Origin: Streptomyces sp. 71268
GTDB taxonomy: Bacteria; Actinomycetota; Actinomycetes; Streptomycetales; Streptomycetaceae
Assembly (NCBI RefSeq): GCF_029392895.1
Contig: NZ_CP114200.1
Location: 6,516,501 to 6,580,500, forward strand
Length of the DNA stretch: 64,000 nucleotides
Reading direction: 5' to 3'
The position numbers and the translations under genes are program-made. Each line of letters begins with the position of its first letter. The first letter of the stretch is position 1. The notes beneath the pieces are model-generated. The model had not been told where the DNA came from. It did no database searches and saw only the letters and a list, made by a program, of their open reading frames with translations. This document shows positions 5,284-32,571 of the stretch, piece by piece.

Positions 5284-5969
5284 CGATCAAGGTGGTGCTC
5301 GCGGACGACCAGGCGCTGTTGCGCAGCGCCTTCCGCATCCTGGTGGACTCCGAGTCCGACATGGAGGTCGTCGGGGAGGCGTCGGACGGTGCCGAGGCCG
5401 TCCGGCTGACCCGGGAGACCGGCGCCGACGTGGTGCTGATGGACATCCGGATGCCCGGCACCGACGGGCTCGCCGCCACCCGGCTGATCAGCGCCGACCC
5501 CGCGCTGGCGGACGTGCGGGTGGTCATGCTGACCACGTTCGAGGTGGACGAGTACGTGGTGGAGTCGCTGCGCGCGGGCGCCAGCGGCTTCCTGGGCAAG
5601 GGCGCCGAGCCCGAGGAACTGCTGGCCGCCATCCGGGTCGCGGCGGCGGGCGAGGCCCTGCTGTCGCCGGTCGCCACCAAGGGGCTGATCGCCAAGTTCC
5701 TCGCGCAGGGCGCCGGTTCGGGAGATCACGCGGCCGACGGCGGCTACGAGGCGGCCCGGCTCGACGCGCTGACGGTGCGCGAGCGCGAGGTGCTGGTGCA
5801 GGTCGCCGGCGGGCTGTCGAACGACCAGATCGCCGAGCGGCTCCAGGTCAGCCCGCTCACCGTGAAGACCCACGTCAACCGGACCATGGCCAAGCTCGGC
5901 GCCCGCGACCGGGCCGGGCTCGTGGTCATCGCGTACGAGAGCGGCCTGGTGCGCCCGCGCTCGGAGTAG
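5280..5969 (+). CDS. NarL/FixJ-family response regulator
   Basis: A 229-residue regulator, partner of the kinase just upstream (ATGA overlap). The receiver domain has the acidic pocket LADDQ, the phosphorylatable Asp55 in VVLMDIRMPG, and the switch region MLTTF and GFLGKG. The carboxy end is a LuxR-type helix-turn-helix (LTVREREVLVQVAGGLSNDQIAERL, then VKTHVNRTMAKLG). All residues needed for phosphotransfer are present. Target genes are unknown; the Psp genes 1.6 kb upstream are the obvious candidates. It ends before a strong shared terminator facing nadA. Confidence 0.93.
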   Translation: MTIKVVLADDQALLRSAFRILVDSESDMEVVGEASDGAEAVRLTRETGADVVLMDIRMPGTDGLAATRLISADPALADVRVVMLTTFEVDEYVVESLRAGASGFLGKGAEPEELLAAIRVAAAGEALLSPVATKGLIAKFLAQGAGSGDHAADGGYEAARLDALTVREREVLVQVAGGLSNDQIAERLQVSPLTVKTHVNRTMAKLGARDRAGLVVIAYESGLVRPRSE

Positions 5970-6024
5970 CTGTCGTCCCCCGCGAGGTCGGGGGCGCGGC
6001 TGGCGGTGGGCGGCCGGCGTGCGC

Positions 6025-6071
6025 GCGAACGCCCCGCGCCGCGTCGGTGGGACGGCGGGCGGGGCGTTCGC
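6025..6071. terminator. Bidirectional terminator between the response regulator and nadA
   Basis: Perfect 13-bp inverted repeat, GCGAACGCCCCGC at 6025-6037 and its complement at 6059-6071, with a 21-base loop between two convergent genes. Confidence 0.7.
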
Positions 6072-6103
6072 GGCGGCCCGCTGGTGGGGGCGCCGGGGCG
6101 GGG

Positions 6104-7297
6104 CTACGGCAGGGACAGCATCCGCTCCAGGGCCAGCTTGGCGAAGCTCTCCGTCTCCGGGTCGACCTCGATGCGGTTGACCACCTTGCCGTCGGCCAAC
6201 GACTCCAGGGCCCAGACCAGGTGCGGGAGGTCGATGCGGTTCATCGTGGAGCAGAAGCACACCGTCTTGTCGAGGAAGACGATCTCCTTGTCCTGGTCGG
6301 CGAACCGGTTGGCCAGCCGCCGCACCAGGTTCAGCTCGGTGCCGATGGCCCACTTGGACCCGGCCGGCGCGGCCTCCAGGGTCTGGATGATGTGCTCGGT
6401 CGAGCCCACGTAGTCGGCGGCCGCGACGACCTCGTGCTTGCACTCGGGGTGGACCAGCACGTTCACGCCCGGTATGCGCTCGCGCACGTCCCGCACCGAC
6501 TCCAGCGAGAACCGGCCGTGCACCGAGCAGTGGCCGCGCCACAGGATCATCTTCGCCGCGCGCAGCTCCTCGACGGTCAGGCCACCGTTCGGCTTGTGCG
6601 GGTTGTAGACGACGCAGTCCTCCAGGGACATCCCGAGGTCCCGTACGGCCGTGTTGCGCCCCAGGTGCTGGTCGGGCAGGAAGAGCACCTTGGCGCCGCC
6701 GGCCTGGCCGCCCTGCGCGAAGGCCCACTCCAGGGCCCGCCGCGCGTTGGACGAGGTGCAGATCGTGCCGCCGTGCTTGCCGGTGAACGCCTTGATGTCG
6801 GCGGAGGAGTTCATGTACGAGACGGGCACGGTCACCTCCGCCACGCCGGCCTCGGTCAGCACGTCCCAGCACTCGGCGACCTGCTCGGCCGTGGCCATGT
6901 CGGCCATGGAGCAGCCGGCGGCCAGGTCGGGGAGGATGACCTGCTGGTCGTCGCCGGTGAGGATGTCGGCGGACTCGGCCATGAAGTGCACGCCGCAGAA
7001 GACGATGAACTCGGCGTCCGGCCGGGCGGCCGCGTCCCTGGCGAGCTTGAACGAGTCCCCGGTGACGTCCGCGAACTCGATGACCTCGTCGCGCTGGTAG
7101 TGGTGGCCGAGCACGAAGACGCGGTCCCCGAGCCGCTCCTTGGCCGCCCGGGCGCGGGCCACCAGGTCGGGGTCGGAGGGGGCGGGGAGGTCGCCCGGGC
7201 ACTCCACGCCGCGCTCGCTCCTCGGGTCGGACTCGCGACCCAGGAGCAGCAGGGCCAGAGGCGTGGGCTGGACGTCGAGAGGTTGGGCGGTGGTCAC
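6104..7297 (-). CDS. nadA: Quinolinate synthase NadA
   Basis: A 397-residue NadA of the long actinobacterial form. It condenses iminoaspartate with dihydroxyacetone phosphate to quinolinate in de novo NAD synthesis and carries an oxygen-sensitive [4Fe-4S] cluster. Visible motifs are VLGHHYQRDEV, IVFCGVHFMAESADIL (first cluster Cys), PDLAAGCSMADMA, GGTICTSSNA, WRGHCSVHGRF (second Cys), HPECKHEV and KTVCFCSTMNRI (third Cys region). GTG at 7297 is preferred because GAAAGGG sits about ten bases upstream; an in-frame GTG 12 bases earlier would overlap that site. No nadB or nadC is adjacent. An Fe-S carrier gene is divergent, which fits the cluster requirement. A dyad and a -10 sequence lie upstream. 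Confidence 0.97.
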   Translation of the reverse strand: MTTAQPLDVQPTPLALLLLGRESDPRSERGVECPGDLPAPSDPDLVARARAAKERLGDRVFVLGHHYQRDEVIEFADVTGDSFKLARDAAARPDAEFIVFCGVHFMAESADILTGDDQQVILPDLAAGCSMADMATAEQVAECWDVLTEAGVAEVTVPVSYMNSSADIKAFTGKHGGTICTSSNARRALEWAFAQGGQAGGAKVLFLPDQHLGRNTAVRDLGMSLEDCVVYNPHKPNGGLTVEELRAAKMILWRGHCSVHGRFSLESVRDVRERIPGVNVLVHPECKHEVVAAADYVGSTEHIIQTLEAAPAGSKWAIGTELNLVRRLANRFADQDKEIVFLDKTVCFCSTMNRIDLPHLVWALESLADGKVVNRIEVDPETESFAKLALERMLSLP

Positions 7298-7353
7298 AGC
7301 ACGCACCCTTTCTGTTTCCGCAGACAAGCCTTTTCGTCTGATTGACGCTATTT

Positions 7354-26533: not shown

Positions 26534-27943
26534 TCAGCGCGACGCGGCGGGCGGACCGGGCAGCGGCACGAGGCGGCCGGGGCCGGGGCTCGGGGCCGTG
26601 ATGGGCGCCGCCACGGGCGCGAAGCGGCCCGGGGCGGCGGTGAGTCGGGTGCCGATGAGGATCATCCGCAGGGCCGCCTCCGCCGCGTCCGTGAGGAACT
26701 CCCGGCCCCGCCCCAGGGCCTCGGCGAGCGCCACCGGCGCGGGCAGGATGCCGTGGTAGGCGTCGACCCCCGCGCCGCGTACCTCCTGAGCGCCTTCGCC
26801 GATGGTGCCCGCGAGGGCGAGCACCGGTCTGCCGTGGGCCTTGGCGCGGCGCGCCACCTCGGCCGGGATCTTGCCCCGGGTCGTCTGCCGGTCCAGTGCG
26901 CCCTCGGCGGTGACGACGAGGTCGGCGCGAGCCAACCGGGCATCCAGGTCCAGGCCGTCCAGGAGCACGTCGAAGCGGGGCAGCAACCGGGCGCCGATCG
27001 CGGCCAGTCCGGCGCCGAGCCCCCCGGACGCGCCGGTGCCGGGCCCGTGGCGCAGATCGACGCCGCCGGCGGCCGAGGGCAGCAGGGCCAGGGCCGGCGC
27101 CGCGCCCGGCGCGGCGTGCGCCGGCGCGGGGGCGGCGCCCGGTGGCGGGCCCGGCGCGGGGGAGGCGAGCGCGACGGCGGGGCCGCTCACGTCGCGCGCG
27201 AGGATGTGGGCCCAGCGTTCGAGCGCGGCCGACAACTCCTCGACCTGGGCCGGGCTCGCGCCCTTCTGTGGCCCGAAGACCCGGGCCACGCCCTGCGGGC
27301 CGCACAGCACGTTGAACGGGTTGCAGGCGACCAGCAGTTCGGTCTCGGCCAGTCGGGGGTCGAGCCGCGACCGGTCGACGCGGGCGAGGCGGGTCAGGGC
27401 CCGCCCGCCGGGCGGGAGTTCGCGGCCGTCCGCGTCGAGCAGTCGGGCACCGAGTGCCTGGAGCGCGCCCGCGCCGCCGTCGGACGTACCCGAGTCGCCG
27501 CAGCCGACGAGGACGCGGCGCGCGCCGAAGTCCAGGGCGGCGCGGATGAGTTCGCCGACACCGCGGGTGGTGGTGGCGCCGGGGTCGCGCTGGTCCGGCG
27601 GCACCAGGGACAGTCCGGCGACGGCGGCCATCTCGACCGCCGCGGTGCGCGCCCCGGCCGGGCCGCGCGCGCCGGGGCCGAGCAGCGCGAAGTGGGTGGG
27701 CACCGCGACGCCGGTCGGGCCGGTGGCGGTGAGGTGGTGCAGGGCGCCACCGGTCGCGGCGGCCAGCGCCTCGGCGGTGCCCTCGCCGCCGTCCACCAGC
27801 GGTATCAGGTCGGTGTCGGCGTCGGGCACCACACGGCGCAGCCCCTCGGCGATGGCCTCGGCGGCCTCGCGGGCGGACAGCGACTCTTTGAACCCACTGG
27901 GGGCCACGGCGAAGCGCAGGGGGCGGGGTGCGGGGGCGTTCAT
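26534..27943 (-). CDS. Glycerate kinase (GarK/GlxK family)
   Basis: A 469-residue glycerate kinase that phosphorylates D-glycerate into glycolysis. Conserved blocks are VAPSGFKESLSA at the start, LVDGGEGTAEAL, GVGELIRAAL, VGCGDSGTSDGGAGALQALG and the later VVTAEGALDRQTTRGKIP. A Pro/Ala-rich insert of about 40 residues (260-300: AHAAPGAAPALAL region) and a long Pro-rich tail make it longer than the usual 380-residue family members. ATG 27943 follows ACGGAG. It may share a transcript with the permease gene 68 bases upstream, which would fit organic-acid uptake followed by use. Confidence 0.93.
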   Translation of the reverse strand: MNAPAPRPLRFAVAPSGFKESLSAREAAEAIAEGLRRVVPDADTDLIPLVDGGEGTAEALAAATGGALHHLTATGPTGVAVPTHFALLGPGARGPAGARTAAVEMAAVAGLSLVPPDQRDPGATTTRGVGELIRAALDFGARRVLVGCGDSGTSDGGAGALQALGARLLDADGRELPPGGRALTRLARVDRSRLDPRLAETELLVACNPFNVLCGPQGVARVFGPQKGASPAQVEELSAALERWAHILARDVSGPAVALASPAPGPPPGAAPAPAHAAPGAAPALALLPSAAGGVDLRHGPGTGASGGLGAGLAAIGARLLPRFDVLLDGLDLDARLARADLVVTAEGALDRQTTRGKIPAEVARRAKAHGRPVLALAGTIGEGAQEVRGAGVDAYHGILPAPVALAEALGRGREFLTDAAEAALRMILIGTRLTAAPGRFAPVAAPITAPSPGPGRLVPLPGPPAASR

Positions 27944-28011: not shown

Positions 28012-29427
28012 TCACAGCGGTACGCCGAGCAGGGGCCAGACGCCCAGCGCGAACAGCCACACCAGGACGGCCGTCAGCGGGGCCAGGACCAGAGAGAGGC
28101 GCAACAGGTCGCGCGGCGCGTACGTGGGGGTGTCGTCCGGCAGGTCGGCGAAGAGGGCCACGGGCTTGGCCGAGGCCGGCAGGGTGTGGCAGAAGCCGGC
28201 GGCGGCCGTGGAGGCCAGCGCGGCGGCCACCGGGCTGACCCCGGCCTCGCCGGCGGCGGCCACCACCAGCGGGACCAGCACGCTGGAGCGGGCGGAACGG
28301 GACTGGAGCGCCAGGTGGGCCGCCGTGCTGAGGGCGATGACCACGCCCAGGAACAGCCAGGGCGGCACGCCGCCGCCGGGTAGGCCCGACACCAGCCAGC
28401 GGGCCGCGCCGGAGACCGAGAGCGCGATGCCCATGGCCATCGTGGCCGCCATGAACAGCAGCAGCGACCACGGGACGGTGCTCAGCGCGTCCTTGAGCCG
28501 CACCGTGCCCAGCGCCGGCGAGGCGGCCACCAGCGCGCCGATCAGCGCGACCACGGCCGGCGGCACCTGGTGCAGGGGTTCGCTGCACCACAGCAGCACG
28601 ACGGTGCCAAGCAACAGCGCGCAGCGGGTCTCCGCGGCGCTCAGCGGCCCGGTCACCGGATGCGGGGTGTGCTCCTGGAGTTGCTCGGCGGTGATGCGTA
28701 CGGGCCCCTGACGGTCGGCCCGCCGGGTCATGGTCAGCAGCACCACCTCGGCCGCCAGGTGCGAGGAGGCGATGGCAAGCGGCAGCCCGAGCAGCAGCCA
28801 GCGGGCGAAGCCAATCTCCTCGCCGGTCGACTCCCACAGCACCGAGACGGTGATCAGGTGCGCCCCGGCGCCGATCAGCGTGGCCACGGCGGAGAGCAGG
28901 ATGACGGTGGGGAACAGCAGCGCCAGCATCACCACCAGCCGCGCCCGGTCGGCCAGCACCCGCGCGAGCGCCAGGAACACCGGCAGCGCGAGCGCCGCCC
29001 GCCCGGAGGTGGCCGGGACGGCGAAGGCGGTGGCCACCAGGGCGGCCGTGGTGAGGTGGACGAGCTGGCGCACGCTGCCCGCCCCGCTCACCAGGAACGC
29101 CGCGGCCCGCCCGGCGAGCCCGCTGCGGCCCACCGCGGCGGCGAGCACGAAGGCGCAGATCAGCAGCCACACGGTGGCGTCGCCCAGGGTGCCGAACAGC
29201 GTCTCGCTGCTGATCACGCCGGTCGCGGTGAGCGCCAGGCCCGCGCCGAGCGCGACGTAGGTGTCGTCGATCGGGGTGGCGATCCAGGCGCAGGTGGCCA
29301 GGGCGAATACGGCCAGGGTGAGCCTGGCGTCGGTGGCCAGCCCCGGCAGGGTGCCGGGCACGGCCAGTACGGCGCACGCGCTGAGGGCGGCGCACCAGGC
29401 GGCGGCCTGCCGGTGGGTGAGGGTCAC
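28012..29427 (-). CDS. SLC13/ArsB-type anion permease
   Basis: A 471-residue integral membrane protein with about 12 hydrophobic helices. Family features include AFVLAAAVGRSGLAGRAAAFLV, FAVPATSGRAALALPVFLALA, the TLIGAGAHLI loop and a second similar half (PLVVAAAGEAGVSPVAAALASTAAAGF). Members move dicarboxylates, citrate or other anions with sodium or protons; the substrate here is not clear. GTG 29427 is chosen: an upstream ATG at 29487 lies inside a repeated operator sequence, and AAGACT ends six bases before the GTG. The operator also stands before the small membrane gene of the neighbouring two-component operon, which suggests joint control. Confidence 0.85.
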   Translation of the reverse strand: MTLTHRQAAAWCAALSACAVLAVPGTLPGLATDARLTLAVFALATCAWIATPIDDTYVALGAGLALTATGVISSETLFGTLGDATVWLLICAFVLAAAVGRSGLAGRAAAFLVSGAGSVRQLVHLTTAALVATAFAVPATSGRAALALPVFLALARVLADRARLVVMLALLFPTVILLSAVATLIGAGAHLITVSVLWESTGEEIGFARWLLLGLPLAIASSHLAAEVVLLTMTRRADRQGPVRITAEQLQEHTPHPVTGPLSAAETRCALLLGTVVLLWCSEPLHQVPPAVVALIGALVAASPALGTVRLKDALSTVPWSLLLFMAATMAMGIALSVSGAARWLVSGLPGGGVPPWLFLGVVIALSTAAHLALQSRSARSSVLVPLVVAAAGEAGVSPVAAALASTAAAGFCHTLPASAKPVALFADLPDDTPTYAPRDLLRLSLVLAPLTAVLVWLFALGVWPLLGVPL

Positions 29428-29460
29428 TCCGTCAGTCTTGGCGCCGGCGGTGAGCCGCCG

Positions 29461-29493
29461 ATGAGCGCGCGATGAGGAGAACTTCATCCCCGC
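29461..29493. promoter_or_regulatory. Operator copy A (direct plus inverted repeat) before the permease
   Basis: ATGAGCGCGCG, ATGAGGAGAAC and TTCATCCCCGC follow one another in 11-base steps. The spacing is typical of OmpR/PhoB-family binding on one helical turn. It ends 34 bases before the permease GTG and matches copy B at 32137. Confidence 0.6.
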
Positions 29494-29570
29494 CGGCGGC
29501 GCCCGCCGCCCCGCCACGTGACCGGCCCGGAGCCCGCCCCGGTCCGGGCCGTGCCGCGCGGGCGCCCGGC

Positions 29571-30230
29571 TCAGGGCAGCCGGTAGCCCATGCCGCGCAC
29601 GGTCTCCACGCGGCCCGCGCCCAGCTTCTTGCGCAGCGCCCGCACGTAGACGTCCACGATGTTGGAGCCGGGGTCGAAGTCGTACCCCCACACGTGGGAG
29701 AGGATCTGCTCGCGCGTGAGGACCTGGCCCGGGTGGCGCAGGAACAGTTCGAGCAGGACGAACTCACGCGCCGTCAGGTCGACCGAGGTCTGCCCCGCGC
29801 GGGCCCTGCGGGTGCGCAGGTCGAGGCTGAGGTCGCCGCTGCGCAGCACGGTCACCTCGGGGGCGCGGGCGGCCGTGCGCAGCCGCAACCGCACCCGGGC
29901 CAGCAGCTCCTCGAAGCGGAACGGCTTGGTCATCCAGTCGTCCGCGCCGCCCTCGAGGCCGGCCACCGTGTCCCGTACGGAGTCGCGCGCGGTCAGGACG
30001 ATCACCGGCGTCGTCACCCGGTCCTCGCGCAGCCCGCGCAGCACCGTGAAACCGTCCTGGCCCGGCAGTCCGATGTCGAGGATGATCAGGTCGAAGCCGC
30101 CGGTGCGGGCGTAGTCGGCCGCGGTGTCGCCGTCGGCCGCGATGGTGGTGGTGAAGCCGCTCGCGCGCAGGCCCTTCTCGACGAAGGCGGCGATGCGCTC
30201 CTCGTCCTCGGCGACCAGAATGCGCTTCAT
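29571..30230 (-). CDS. OmpR/PhoB-family response regulator
   Basis: A 219-residue regulator. The receiver has VAEDEER, phosphorylatable Asp52 (LIILDIGLPG), the switch Thr in VLTAR and Lys in WMTKPF. A winged-helix DNA-binding domain (about 125-219) carries LTAREFVLLELFLRHPGQVLTREQIL and VDVYVRALRKKLG. The ATG shares its A with the TGA stop of the kinase gene (TGATG). The most likely targets are the two matching 33-bp repeats at 29461 and 32137, one at each end of this gene block. Confidence 0.95.
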   Translation of the reverse strand: MKRILVAEDEERIAAFVEKGLRASGFTTTIAADGDTAADYARTGGFDLIILDIGLPGQDGFTVLRGLREDRVTTPVIVLTARDSVRDTVAGLEGGADDWMTKPFRFEELLARVRLRLRTAARAPEVTVLRSGDLSLDLRTRRARAGQTSVDLTAREFVLLELFLRHPGQVLTREQILSHVWGYDFDPGSNIVDVYVRALRKKLGAGRVETVRGMGYRLP

Positions 30231-31783
30231 CAGGTGGTGTCCTCCAGCAGCAGGGCGAAGGTGGCGCCGGCCCCGTCCCCGGGCGCGGCCGGGCTCGGGT
30301 GCGGCGCGGTGGCGGGGCCGGTCGTCGGGGCGGGGGCGGCCGGGTCGTGCCAGTCGCCGGGGCGCAGCTCCACGCGGCCCCGGTGGCCCTCGGCGATGGC
30401 CTTGACGATCGACAGGCCGAGGCCGGCGCCCCCGCCGTGGGTGTCGGTGGCCGCCCCCGGGCCGCGGGCGCCGCGCCGGGCGGTGCCCCGGCGGAACCTC
30501 TCGAAGATCAACTCGGTGTCCTCGGGCCGCACGCCGGGCCCGGTGTCGCTCACGTACAGCTCCACCAGGCCGGGGGCGCGCCGGGAGCCGATGCGGATGC
30601 GCTGGCCGACGGCGGTGTGCTGCACGGCGTTCTGCGCGAGCTGCACCATGGCCTGGGTGACGCGCTGGGCGTCGAGCAGCGCCTCGCCCTCGGCGACCTC
30701 GGCCAGCTCCCAGCGGCGCTCGCCGAGCGTGCGGGCCTTGACGAAGACATCGGCGGTCAGCTCGGTGAGCTGCACCGGAGCGGGGGCGACGAAGTCCGGG
30801 CGCTCGGCCTTGGCCAGCAGGAGCAGGTCCTCGACGATGCGGCTCATCCGGTCCAGCTCGTCGGTGACCAGGCGCACGGTCTCCTCGCGCTCGGCCGCCC
30901 CGTCCGGGCCGGTGTTCATCAGTTCCAGGTGACCGCGCACGATGGTGATGGGCGTGCGCAGCTCGTGGCCTGCGTCGTCCACGAACTGGCGCTGGGCGCC
31001 GAACGCCCGCTCCAGGCGGTCCAGCATCGCGTTGAACGTCTCGGCGAGCGCCGAGATGTCGTCGCGGCCCCGCACCGGGATGCGCCGGGTCAGGTCCTGC
31101 TCGGTGAGCTGCGCCGCGGTGGTGCGCACCAGGCGTACGGGGGCGAGGATGCGGCCGGCGACGACCCAGCCGATGCCGCAGGTCATCAGCAGCGCGACGC
31201 CCGAGATGGCCAGCAGGATGCGGAAGACCTCGCCCGCGCGCGCCGTTTCGCGGTCCGGGTGGAAGGCGACCACGAAGGTGCCCTCGGGGCCCGCGCCGCC
31301 CGGCCGGATGGCGACCTTGGCCCAGCGCACCTCGCCCTCGTCCCGGTCGAGGGTGCCGGTGGTCCGCTCGGAGCGGGCGATGGCGGCCAGCGCCCGGTCG
31401 TCGCGGTACAGCGGTAGCCGCACGGGAATGTCGCGCTTCTGCCGGACCACCGACGGCGGCTTCGCGTCGTGCACCAGGCCGAGCAGTTCCTCGTACGGGT
31501 CGGCGTACTGCCGCTCCAGGAAGACCTTGAGCAGCCGGCGCGGCTCGGTGAACGGGGCGCCGGTGCGCGGGTCCTGGCCGCGCTCGACGAAGTTGGCGAA
31601 CTCGCCGGCCTCCTGCGCGAGCAGTTCCGTCGTGCGTTGGTCGACGTCGCGCAGCAGGATCGAGCGGGTGGTGGTGGCGACGGCGGCCAGCGCGACGGTC
31701 ATCACCAGGAGCAGCCACAGCAGGATCCGTACCCGGGCCGAGATCCGGCGGCCCGGCGCGGGGGGCGCGTCAGCCGTCGTCAC
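30230..31783 (-). CDS. Sensor histidine kinase, EnvZ/BaeS-like
   Basis: A 517-residue membrane kinase: helix 1 at about 19-36, an extracytoplasmic sensor of about 150 residues, helix 2 at about 188-208, a HAMP domain, the dimerisation motif DDAGHELRTPIT with His273, then the N box (QLAQNAVQHTA), G1 (DTGPGV), F (FERFRRG) and G2 (GGGAGLGLSIV) boxes. An Ala/Pro-rich tail ends the protein. GTG 31783 is preferred: it overlaps the small upstream gene by 14 bases. The ATG at 31840 would add only a Thr-rich shadow of the upstream acidic tail. Signal unknown. Confidence 0.93.
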   Translation of the reverse strand: MTTADAPPAPGRRISARVRILLWLLLVMTVALAAVATTTRSILLRDVDQRTTELLAQEAGEFANFVERGQDPRTGAPFTEPRRLLKVFLERQYADPYEELLGLVHDAKPPSVVRQKRDIPVRLPLYRDDRALAAIARSERTTGTLDRDEGEVRWAKVAIRPGGAGPEGTFVVAFHPDRETARAGEVFRILLAISGVALLMTCGIGWVVAGRILAPVRLVRTTAAQLTEQDLTRRIPVRGRDDISALAETFNAMLDRLERAFGAQRQFVDDAGHELRTPITIVRGHLELMNTGPDGAAEREETVRLVTDELDRMSRIVEDLLLLAKAERPDFVAPAPVQLTELTADVFVKARTLGERRWELAEVAEGEALLDAQRVTQAMVQLAQNAVQHTAVGQRIRIGSRRAPGLVELYVSDTGPGVRPEDTELIFERFRRGTARRGARGPGAATDTHGGGAGLGLSIVKAIAEGHRGRVELRPGDWHDPAAPAPTTGPATAPHPSPAAPGDGAGATFALLLEDTT

Positions 31784-32102
31784 CGGGTCCGTCGTCGCCC
31801 GCGTCGTCGTCGTGCTCGGTGGTGTCGTCTGCGGTGTCATCGGCCATACCGTCGGTCGCTGGCGGTGGGGGTACGGCCTCGTGGCTCGGGGAGGCGGGCC
31901 GGTCGGACGCCGGGGGCGGCCCGGTGGGCGTGGCGCCCGGCGGGGCGCTTGGGTCGGGCGCCGGGGTGCCGGATTCGAGCTCGACCTTGGAGGGGGCCTT
32001 GGGCGAGTCGGGGCTGTCGGTCAGCAGGTAGCTCGTGACGGCGATGCCGAGCGGGATCGCGACGACGGCCGTGAGGGTGGCGAGTCGGTGGGATAGGGCC
32101 AT
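31770..32102 (-). CDS. Small membrane protein with acidic tail, first gene of the two-component operon
   Basis: A 110-residue protein. One hydrophobic segment (about 7-27, LATLTAVVAIPLGIAVTSYLL) is followed by a Pro/Ser/Ala-rich stretch and a strongly acidic end (DDTADDTTEHDDDAGDDGPGDDG-like, positions 86-110). It overlaps the kinase gene. I do not recognise a family. Its position ahead of the kinase, and the operator before it, suggest an accessory to signal sensing, perhaps binding cations. The ATG lies six bases after CACCGT (leaderless pattern) and after GGGGGC. Confidence 0.7.
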   Translation of the reverse strand: MALSHRLATLTAVVAIPLGIAVTSYLLTDSPDSPKAPSKVELESGTPAPDPSAPPGATPTGPPPASDRPASPSHEAVPPPPATDGMADDTADDTTEHDDDAGDDGPGDDG

Positions 32103-32136
32103 GCCCCCACGGTGCGCCGCCGACCCGCGGGCCGCG

Positions 32137-32169
32137 ATGAAGACACCATGAGGACTTCTTCATCTTCCC
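32137..32169. promoter_or_regulatory. Operator copy B before the two-component operon
   Basis: ATGAAGACACC, ATGAGGACTTC and TTCATCTTCCC run in 11-base steps. It shares ATGA-N7-ATGAGGA-N4-TTCATC with copy A. It ends 35 bases before the start of the small membrane gene, almost the same distance as copy A to its gene. Confidence 0.6.
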
Positions 32170-32289: not shown

Positions 32290-32571
32290 TTACGCGTCGA
32301 GCCCGATCGCGAAGGCCGCCTCCAGGTCGTGCTGCGAGTACGTGCGGAAGGCGATGTGCGTCTCCGTAGAGGCCACCCCGGGGACCTTGCTGATCTGGCC
32401 GGGGATGACGTCGGCGAGGTCGTCGTGGCGGGCCACCCGCACCATGGCGATCAGGTTGTGCGCGCCGGTGACCGAGTAGACCTCGCTCACCCCCTCCAGG
32501 GCGGCGATCTTCTCGGCGACCTCGGGGATCTGGTCCACGCTGGTCTTGATGAGCACGATTGACGTGATCAC
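32290..32571 (-). CDS. Stand-alone Lrp/AsnC ligand-binding (RAM) domain protein
   Basis: A 93-residue protein made of just the RAM fold of Lrp/AsnC regulators, with no DNA-binding domain. The core reads ITSIVLIKTSVDQIPEV, VSEVYSVTGAHNLIAMVRV and KVPGVASTETHIAF; the G-A-H-N turn is where such domains bind an effector amino acid. These stand-alone domains usually form oligomers. GTG 32571 shares bases with the rhomboid stop (GTGA), and GGGAGA precedes it. Partner and ligand are not known. Confidence 0.9.
   Translation of the reverse strand: MITSIVLIKTSVDQIPEVAEKIAALEGVSEVYSVTGAHNLIAMVRVARHDDLADVIPGQISKVPGVASTETHIAFRTYSQHDLEAAFAIGLDA

Follow-up and report, generated by a model that had tools for sequence, protein, structure and literature searches.

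The stretch of the Streptomyces sp. 71268 genome studied here (64,000 nucleotides of contig NZ_CP114200.1, positions 6,516,501 to 6,580,500; hereafter the window) carries on its minus strand a block of five genes that encode, in order, a small membrane protein, a sensor kinase, an OmpR-family response regulator, a DASS/CitMHS-like permease, and a glycerate kinase. Two sites of shared sequence, operators A and B, lie before the small-protein gene and the permease gene, respectively. Based on comparison with related genomes, we consider it very probable that the regulator encoded at 29571-30230 binds A as well as B and controls its own operon together with the permease-glycerate kinase operon, most likely by activating them. 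The features of the block, in the order of transcription, are:

32136..32164, minus strand: operator A, with half-sites GATGAA (32159-32164, inverted), CTCATG (32147-32152), and TTCATC (32136-32141)
32109..32114, minus strand: -10-like hexamer CACCGT upstream of the ATG of the small protein, weak in this genome and better in related ones (e.g., CAGGAT)
31770..32102, minus strand: small bitopic membrane protein, 110 amino acids (aa), with an N-terminal hydrophobic stretch, a Pro-rich linker, and an Asp-rich tail
30230..31840, minus strand: sensor histidine kinase, 536 aa as called, with HAMP, HisKA, and HATPase_c domains
29571..30230, minus strand: OmpR-family response regulator, 219 aa, with recognition helix SNIVDVYVRALRKKL and Ala198
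29449..29488, minus strand: operator B, with half-sites GATGAA (29483-29488, inverted), CTCATC (29471-29476), CTCATC (29460-29465), and CTCACC (29449-29454)
29434..29439, minus strand: -10-like hexamer AAGACT, six bases before the permease GTG, in a probably leaderless geometry
28012..29427, minus strand: DASS/CitMHS-like permease, 471 aa, with the stretches TSGR and SRSAR aligned to the SNT motifs of VcINDY
26534..27943, minus strand: glycerate kinase (PF02595), the gene after the permease

A first-pass annotation of this DNA had proposed two matching sites that share the pattern ATGA-N7-ATGAGGA-N4-TTCATC. Both are present as exact matches, the only ones in the window (29461-29488 and 32137-32164), and at the distances proposed from the start codons (29461 to the GTG at 29427; 32137 to the ATG at 32102). 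On the coding (minus) strand, the architecture is an inverted pair, GATGAA-N6-YTCATS, followed by direct repeats at steps of 11 base pairs (bp): site A reads GATGAA-N6-CTCATG-N5-TTCATC, and site B reads GATGAA-N6-CTCATC-N5-CTCATC-N5-CTCACC. The 11-base steps described earlier thus hold for the repeats, but the first element, read on the strand of the target genes, is an inverted half-site, and the permease site extends by one repeat (CTCACC) beyond the bounds first given to it. Also missing from that first picture were the glycerate kinase gene that comes next and the spread of the motif past Streptomyces. For the 28-base core, a mean of 0.03 matches with up to three mismatches is expected in the window, and none of 100 shuffles reached two. 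Across the whole genome (8,379,354 bases in one contig, with the reverse-strand form as query), just these two sites lie within two mismatches; a third match, outside both sites, has three, and the reversed-pattern control gave none. The improbable thing is the whole element, as the direct repeat by itself (CTCATC-N5-CTCATC, up to two mismatches) is hardly above chance, with seven matches in the window against 3.28 expected and 4 of 100 shuffles equaling that count.

Operators should recur at the orthologous positions of related genomes, as the first-pass annotation had reasoned, and the two sites do. A kinase search of genome contigs found 139 relatives, and the best 80 loci were used; by record title these are 74 Streptomyces, one Kitasatospora, one Microtetraspora, and four Saccharopolyspora. 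The Microtetraspora glauca (L078) and Kitasatospora aureofaciens (L041) loci show Streptomyces-like identity, and these names may be outdated or wrong. The loci were scanned with a matrix of 33 columns and ∼32 bits of information, trained on 15 sites, some of which stem from genomes among the scanned 80 (at least L026, L056, and L082). Site A was found in 80/80 loci, with scores of 21.0-49.5 bits. Site B exceeds 20 bits in 74 loci and 12 bits in 78; of the remaining two, L092 scores 11.7 bits, and in L049 the contig breaks off ahead of the permease. Matrices with shuffled columns, run over the same intervals, gave a mean best score of -4.1, a 99th percentile of 6.9, and a maximum of 20.5, with no match above 25 bits in 50 trials versus 157 for the real matrix (some of these are the palindrome read on the opposite strand). 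Because the shuffled maximum is 20.5 bits, the weakest B sites rest more on position than on score. The genes are kept as well: tblastn found the regulator and the kinase at all 80 loci, the permease and the glycerate kinase at 79 each, the small protein at 76, an Lrp-like gene at 74, and a rhomboid gene at 72. The four Saccharopolyspora loci have no tblastn match to the Lrp, rhomboid, and small proteins and keep the sites and the rest of the block; in two of them (L091 and L092), the frame behind site A follows the small protein's plan.

Spacing to the start codon is close to fixed. Among the offsets tried, the start lies 61-63 bases from the motif start at 80/80 A sites and 60-62 bases at 77/80 B sites. 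The -10-like hexamer that had been claimed before both starts is fair at the permease and poor at the small protein; in relatives, the corresponding columns hold A at -12 in 71/80 and T at -8 in 72/80 before the permease, and each in 54/80 before the small protein. The near-fixed distance and these columns suggest leaderless transcripts, with the direct repeats placed over the -35 region. A generic scan of this stretch for sigma-70 promoters and terminators found none, including no promoter with a consensus -35. The fold between the regulator stop and site B is no better than shuffles (z -0.47), and a terminator there is therefore not claimed. A near-fixed distance from a probably leaderless start would also be expected if the conserved sequence were a promoter or leaderless-start element, or a chance product of GC-rich DNA, instead of an operator. 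We regard this as very improbable, given the information content of the matrix, the presence of only two genomic copies, the complete absence of reversed-control matches in 394 genomes, and the different site-to-start distances found in other families.

The layout bears on the direction of control as well. The same regulator could repress from both sites, blocking RNA polymerase at -35 to -10 until a signal releases it; the half-sites do overlap the presumed -35, and the fourth half-site of B is ∼10 bases from the -10-like hexamer. However, PhoB-type activators usually have their boxes directly upstream of a -10 that lacks a good -35, and the same layout is seen here, where the generic scan found no consensus -35 promoter. 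Repression is thus the unlikely option, and activation is the direction that we favor.

Genomes outside Streptomyces help to identify the probable binding protein. Within the class, the four-half-site pattern (up to one mismatch) occurs in 56/394 genomes. For a comparison by regulator similarity, loci were picked in 148 genomes, with fetched stretches of up to about 10.8 kilobases (kb). Grouping by regulator identity placed 36 non-Streptomyces loci at ≥60% (L134 and L169-L203) and 12 below, 11 of which were fetched (L204-L214; the locus in G110 was not). An original grouping by tblastn identity, under which 29/35 and 2/13 loci had a site, was replaced by one based on the regulator-search identities. 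L134 had been chosen since both regulator and motif were already seen there, and L215 and L216, chosen for their motif, are excluded from the clade and paralogue counts. A strict core site (12 of 12 positions) is present in 30/36 loci of the clade, in 0/11 paralogue loci (50%-59% identity), and in 0/245 shuffled loci, which are first-order random sequences generated from each locus; allowing one core mismatch raises the clade count to 32/36 and leaves the paralogues at 0/11, with 0.1 match expected per locus. Of the 30 strict-site loci, 23 have a site on the regulator's strand at a distance of 1.7-2.3 kb upstream, that is, before the kinase operon, and five have one just behind the regulator; some loci have both positions, and six have sites solely at other places (L184, L186, L188, L189, L200, and L203). 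In the regulator tree, whose base is unresolved, the paralogues stand in groups of their own, two of them well supported and L213 and L214 not. Site presence requires eight changes on this tree, and each of 500 shuffles needed more. The motif is associated with this regulator clade; the paralogous OmpR-type regulators that were examined do not have it.

The sequence of the inverted pair varies together with a residue of the regulator. We compared the 80 Streptomyces-type A sites with 50 sites from other families (including those of L215 and L216). Columns 6/13 change from A.T (56/80) to G.C (42/50), columns 7/12 from G.C (72/80) to A.T (37/50), and columns 8/11 from A.T (54/80) to G.C (25/50), so the arm positions swap between families as complementary pairs. 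B sites agree at 6/13 (A.T in 65/79) and 7/12 (G.C in 48/79) and are mostly non-complementary at 8/11 and 2/17 (pairing in 6/79 and 13/79, respectively). Within the recognition helix, residue 198 corresponds in the alignment to the second Arg of the PhoB stretch IRRLRK, a residue that contacts bases. Where this residue is Tyr, columns 6/13 are G.C in 41/41 sites; where it is Ala (159 sites), they are G.C in 7, A.T in 117, A.C in 27, and G.T in 8. Ten further sites belong to regulators with Asn, Ser, or no aligned residue at this position, and these counts take in L216. Operator arms and residue 198 (Ala/Tyr) change together, perhaps in one or two events.

How many promoters carry such sites was addressed with a sequence-only model (R1; 54 sites including the two in the window) searched in 61 genomes, with strict filters and 108 candidates scored per genome, settings under which weak sites can escape. 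The 17 matches with an expectation value (E) below 1e-3 all fall at sites A or B in the 10 kinase-carrying genomes; none of the 51 kinase-less genomes has such a match (best E 0.0042). The second site is weaker in two of the 10 genomes (G006, 0.0064; G019, 0.0265 and 0.53). The strong Streptomyces sites are therefore these two promoters only, and weak ones could have escaped the filters. Matches in G057, G037, and G004 (E 0.0042-0.0153) were dismissed and not counted as operators, as their matrix scores are 5.4, 12.8, and 14.2 and the loci have no tblastn match to the proteins of the block. Kinase, regulator, and permease occur together in 9/61 genomes. The genome G053 has a regulator at 60%, no permease, and a further weak R1 match (C1, E 0.0135). 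One locus of a close relative, G031 (L136, C1:6736500-6747500), consists of site A, the small protein, and approximately the first 216 kinase residues, followed by a fragment of the glycerate kinase. The stretch gave no match to the regulator or the permease, both of which have apparently been lost there through a natural deletion.

These results also bear on whether some other DNA-binding protein, for example, a paralogous OmpR-type regulator, occupies the sites while the neighboring regulator is a passenger. Related regulators are numerous in these genomes (a first look gave 78 candidates in this one), and binding by the neighboring one is a prediction. Nevertheless, the site tracks this clade and is missing from the 11 paralogue loci, R1 matches below E 1e-3 are confined to genomes with the kinase, and the site varies with residue 198 of this very regulator, which together make another binder improbable. 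Site presence, conservation, geometry, clade association, and co-variation of the arms with residue 198 are the observed basis of our interpretation. The first-pass proposal of autoregulation and direct permease control by the regulator at 29571 is favored by this comparative evidence.

Several observations weigh against this interpretation or narrow it. The last repeat of operator B falls in the interval from -35 to -10, a position also used by repressors, and site B is weak in the four Saccharopolyspora loci (11.7-20.8 bits), below or near the null maximum. Just 11 of 30 fetched class-wide matches have a kinase or regulator relative within ∼1.5 kb, and some are distant from the regulator (∼77 kb in G114), so other families have either a larger regulon or some matches that are no operators. 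Three loci of the clade (L194, L196, and L201) are without a site, as is L175, a short contig, and two others (L192 and L197) have permease and glycerate kinase genes after the regulator, yet site B was not found. The switch between Ala and Tyr at residue 198 can be explained by one or two changes on the tree, which makes the co-variation strong in count and weak in independent events. Permease and regulator always co-occur in the 61 genomes, so there is no genome with the permease and without the regulator to compare. Finally, binding and the direction of control are predictions from sequence comparison.

If the regulator acts as we propose, its phosphorylated form (phosphorylation being presumed) would bind the inverted half-site pair through its recognition helix, and occupancy would extend in 11-bp steps to the -35 region, covering one more half-site in A and two more in B. 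It would then activate two probably leaderless transcripts in the PhoB-type class II manner: one for the small membrane protein, kinase, and regulator, amounting to autoregulation, and one for the permease and glycerate kinase. The Asp-tailed small protein may modulate the kinase, as its place and conservation suggest.

The regulator has the two domains that define the OmpR/PhoB family, a receiver (PF00072, E 1.3e-25) and a Trans_reg_C winged helix (PF00486, E 5.2e-27). Its best NCBIfam match is CztR/SilR/CopR (TIGR01387), at 215.3 bits against a cut-off of 279.2, and the kinase reaches 195 bits against the 292.55 of cztS_silS_copS; among the matches listed (25 each of 95 and 69), no named equivalog lies above its cut-off for either protein. 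As called, the kinase gene begins ∼70 bases before the small-protein gene ends (31770-31840), which makes this start uncertain, and the true start may lie downstream; kinase conservation in many relatives starts near residue 31. The small membrane protein has no Pfam or NCBIfam match, and its relatives carry the NCBI name "small secreted hydrophilic protein." Its last 35 residues have a median of 40% acidic residues in the 80 Streptomyces-type loci (minimum 23%). The permease exceeds the Pfam cut-offs for CitMHS and Na_sulph_symp and falls short of that for NCBIfam DASS (135.8 bits against 198.6). DASS (SLC13) sodium-coupled anion symporters are marked by two SNT motifs at the substrate site, as in VcINDY. 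In a weak alignment to VcINDY (E 2e-5), these positions read TSGR and SRSAR instead, identically in 79/79 permease relatives, and for this reason we do not assign a substrate; the glycerate kinase gene next to it prompts the guess that glycerate or a related acid is carried. Just upstream of site A, at 32290-32571, lies the Lrp-like gene counted above; it encodes an Lrp/AsnC ligand-binding domain on its own, with no DNA-binding part.

In other families, what follows the sites is partly constant and partly exchanged. Upstream sites are followed in 21/23 cases by a frame of 97-235 aa that opens with a hydrophobic stretch. In the parts inspected, 20 of these 21 small-protein frames show an Asp run; in L183 and L185, a kinase-length frame comes directly after the upstream site. 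The second site precedes, in one family, a DUF4956 protein (by Pfam in L171 and L169) and then a VTC-domain protein (L171); in another, proteins of ∼400-420 aa, with a Pfam APH match in L172 (E 6.9e-12); and in a third, Asp-rich secreted proteins, of which the one in L195 has a protein kinase behind it. In L171, the DUF4956 and VTC-domain genes (5837-7335) are right behind the clade regulator, with the matching site before DUF4956, and a link of this family to polyphosphate-type chemistry is possible. In the secreted proteins behind matching sites in L191, L193, L195, L198, L199, and L203, Asp runs give way to repeats rich in Asn, Thr, and Arg. The small protein is thus widely conserved, and the second target differs between families.

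A broader reading, to which we give about an even chance, is that one ancient operator code, the inverted pair plus 11-bp YTCAT repeats, defines an unnamed actinobacterial two-component system. The small Asp-tailed protein would be its fixed core target, serving as sensor antenna or feedback partner, and residue 198 would co-evolve with the operator arms. The second target would be exchanged among a transporter with glycerate kinase, a DUF4956 and VTC polyphosphate-polymerase-like pair, phosphotransferase-like proteins, and Asp-rich secreted proteins. If our interpretation is right, an uncharacterized system of many actinobacterial families gains a predicted binding site and a testable specificity residue, along with two predicted target operons in Streptomyces, and the "small secreted hydrophilic protein" family becomes tied to a sensor kinase. 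Because the second target differs by family, it would also offer a way into what the kinase senses.

The pair has probably been encountered before in Streptomyces coelicolor. SCO2142-SCO2143, listed without a name in a review table as a classic kinase and OmpR-type regulator in kinase-regulator order, is likely the uncharacterized orthologue; that gene order and a small-protein homologue on record from S. violaceoruber are the two points from which we draw this. According to the passages available from PMC3498368, SCO2142-2143 was formerly a CssRS candidate and was unaltered on alpha-amylase oversynthesis ("data not shown"). Gly389Cys in SCO2142 is one of four tabulated point mutations in the mutant Mt-206005, from a screen for diminished undecylprodigiosin. 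Among the literature matches listed, no title or abstract opening describes this operator motif or a SCO2142-2143 regulon or signal, and the first-pass annotation likewise knew of no described regulon with this motif.

Like CutRS and CssRS of the same genus, the system is an OmpR-family two-component system, but the CutR motif, as given in the part of PMC12802291 consulted, is TAWATAAA. Closer in layout are PhoB, PhoP of Mycobacterium tuberculosis, and BasR/PmrA: the regulator shares their receiver and Trans_reg_C domains and matches their solved structures in sequence, the half-sites recur at 11-bp steps that end near the -10, and autoregulation is indicated by the arrangement. These repeats are present and conserved, and binding to them in the tandem OmpR/PhoB fashion is predicted. 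Unlike in these systems, the half-site is YTCAT, the repeats are preceded by an inverted half-site, and, among the matches listed, the regulator reaches no NCBIfam cut-off. The CztR/SilR/CopR group (CusR, PcoR, and HprR) supplies the best family matches of both regulator and kinase, and the inverted box resembles the CusR/HprR box, ATGA-N8-TCAT. However, both proteins remain under the family cut-offs, the operators have additional direct-repeat half-sites, and the annotated neighbors include no metal efflux genes, but a DASS-like permease and glycerate kinase instead, which is not the setting of a metal regulator. Small membrane proteins of the MgrB/PmrR type feed back on a sensor kinase, and the small single-helix protein next to the kinase, apparently under control of the same system, recalls them in plan and position; its outer tail, unlike theirs, is long and Asp-rich, and feedback by it would be by analogy. 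Among these systems, the one described here is of an ordinary type, with an operator that is apparently undescribed and widely shared and with an unusual conserved partner protein.

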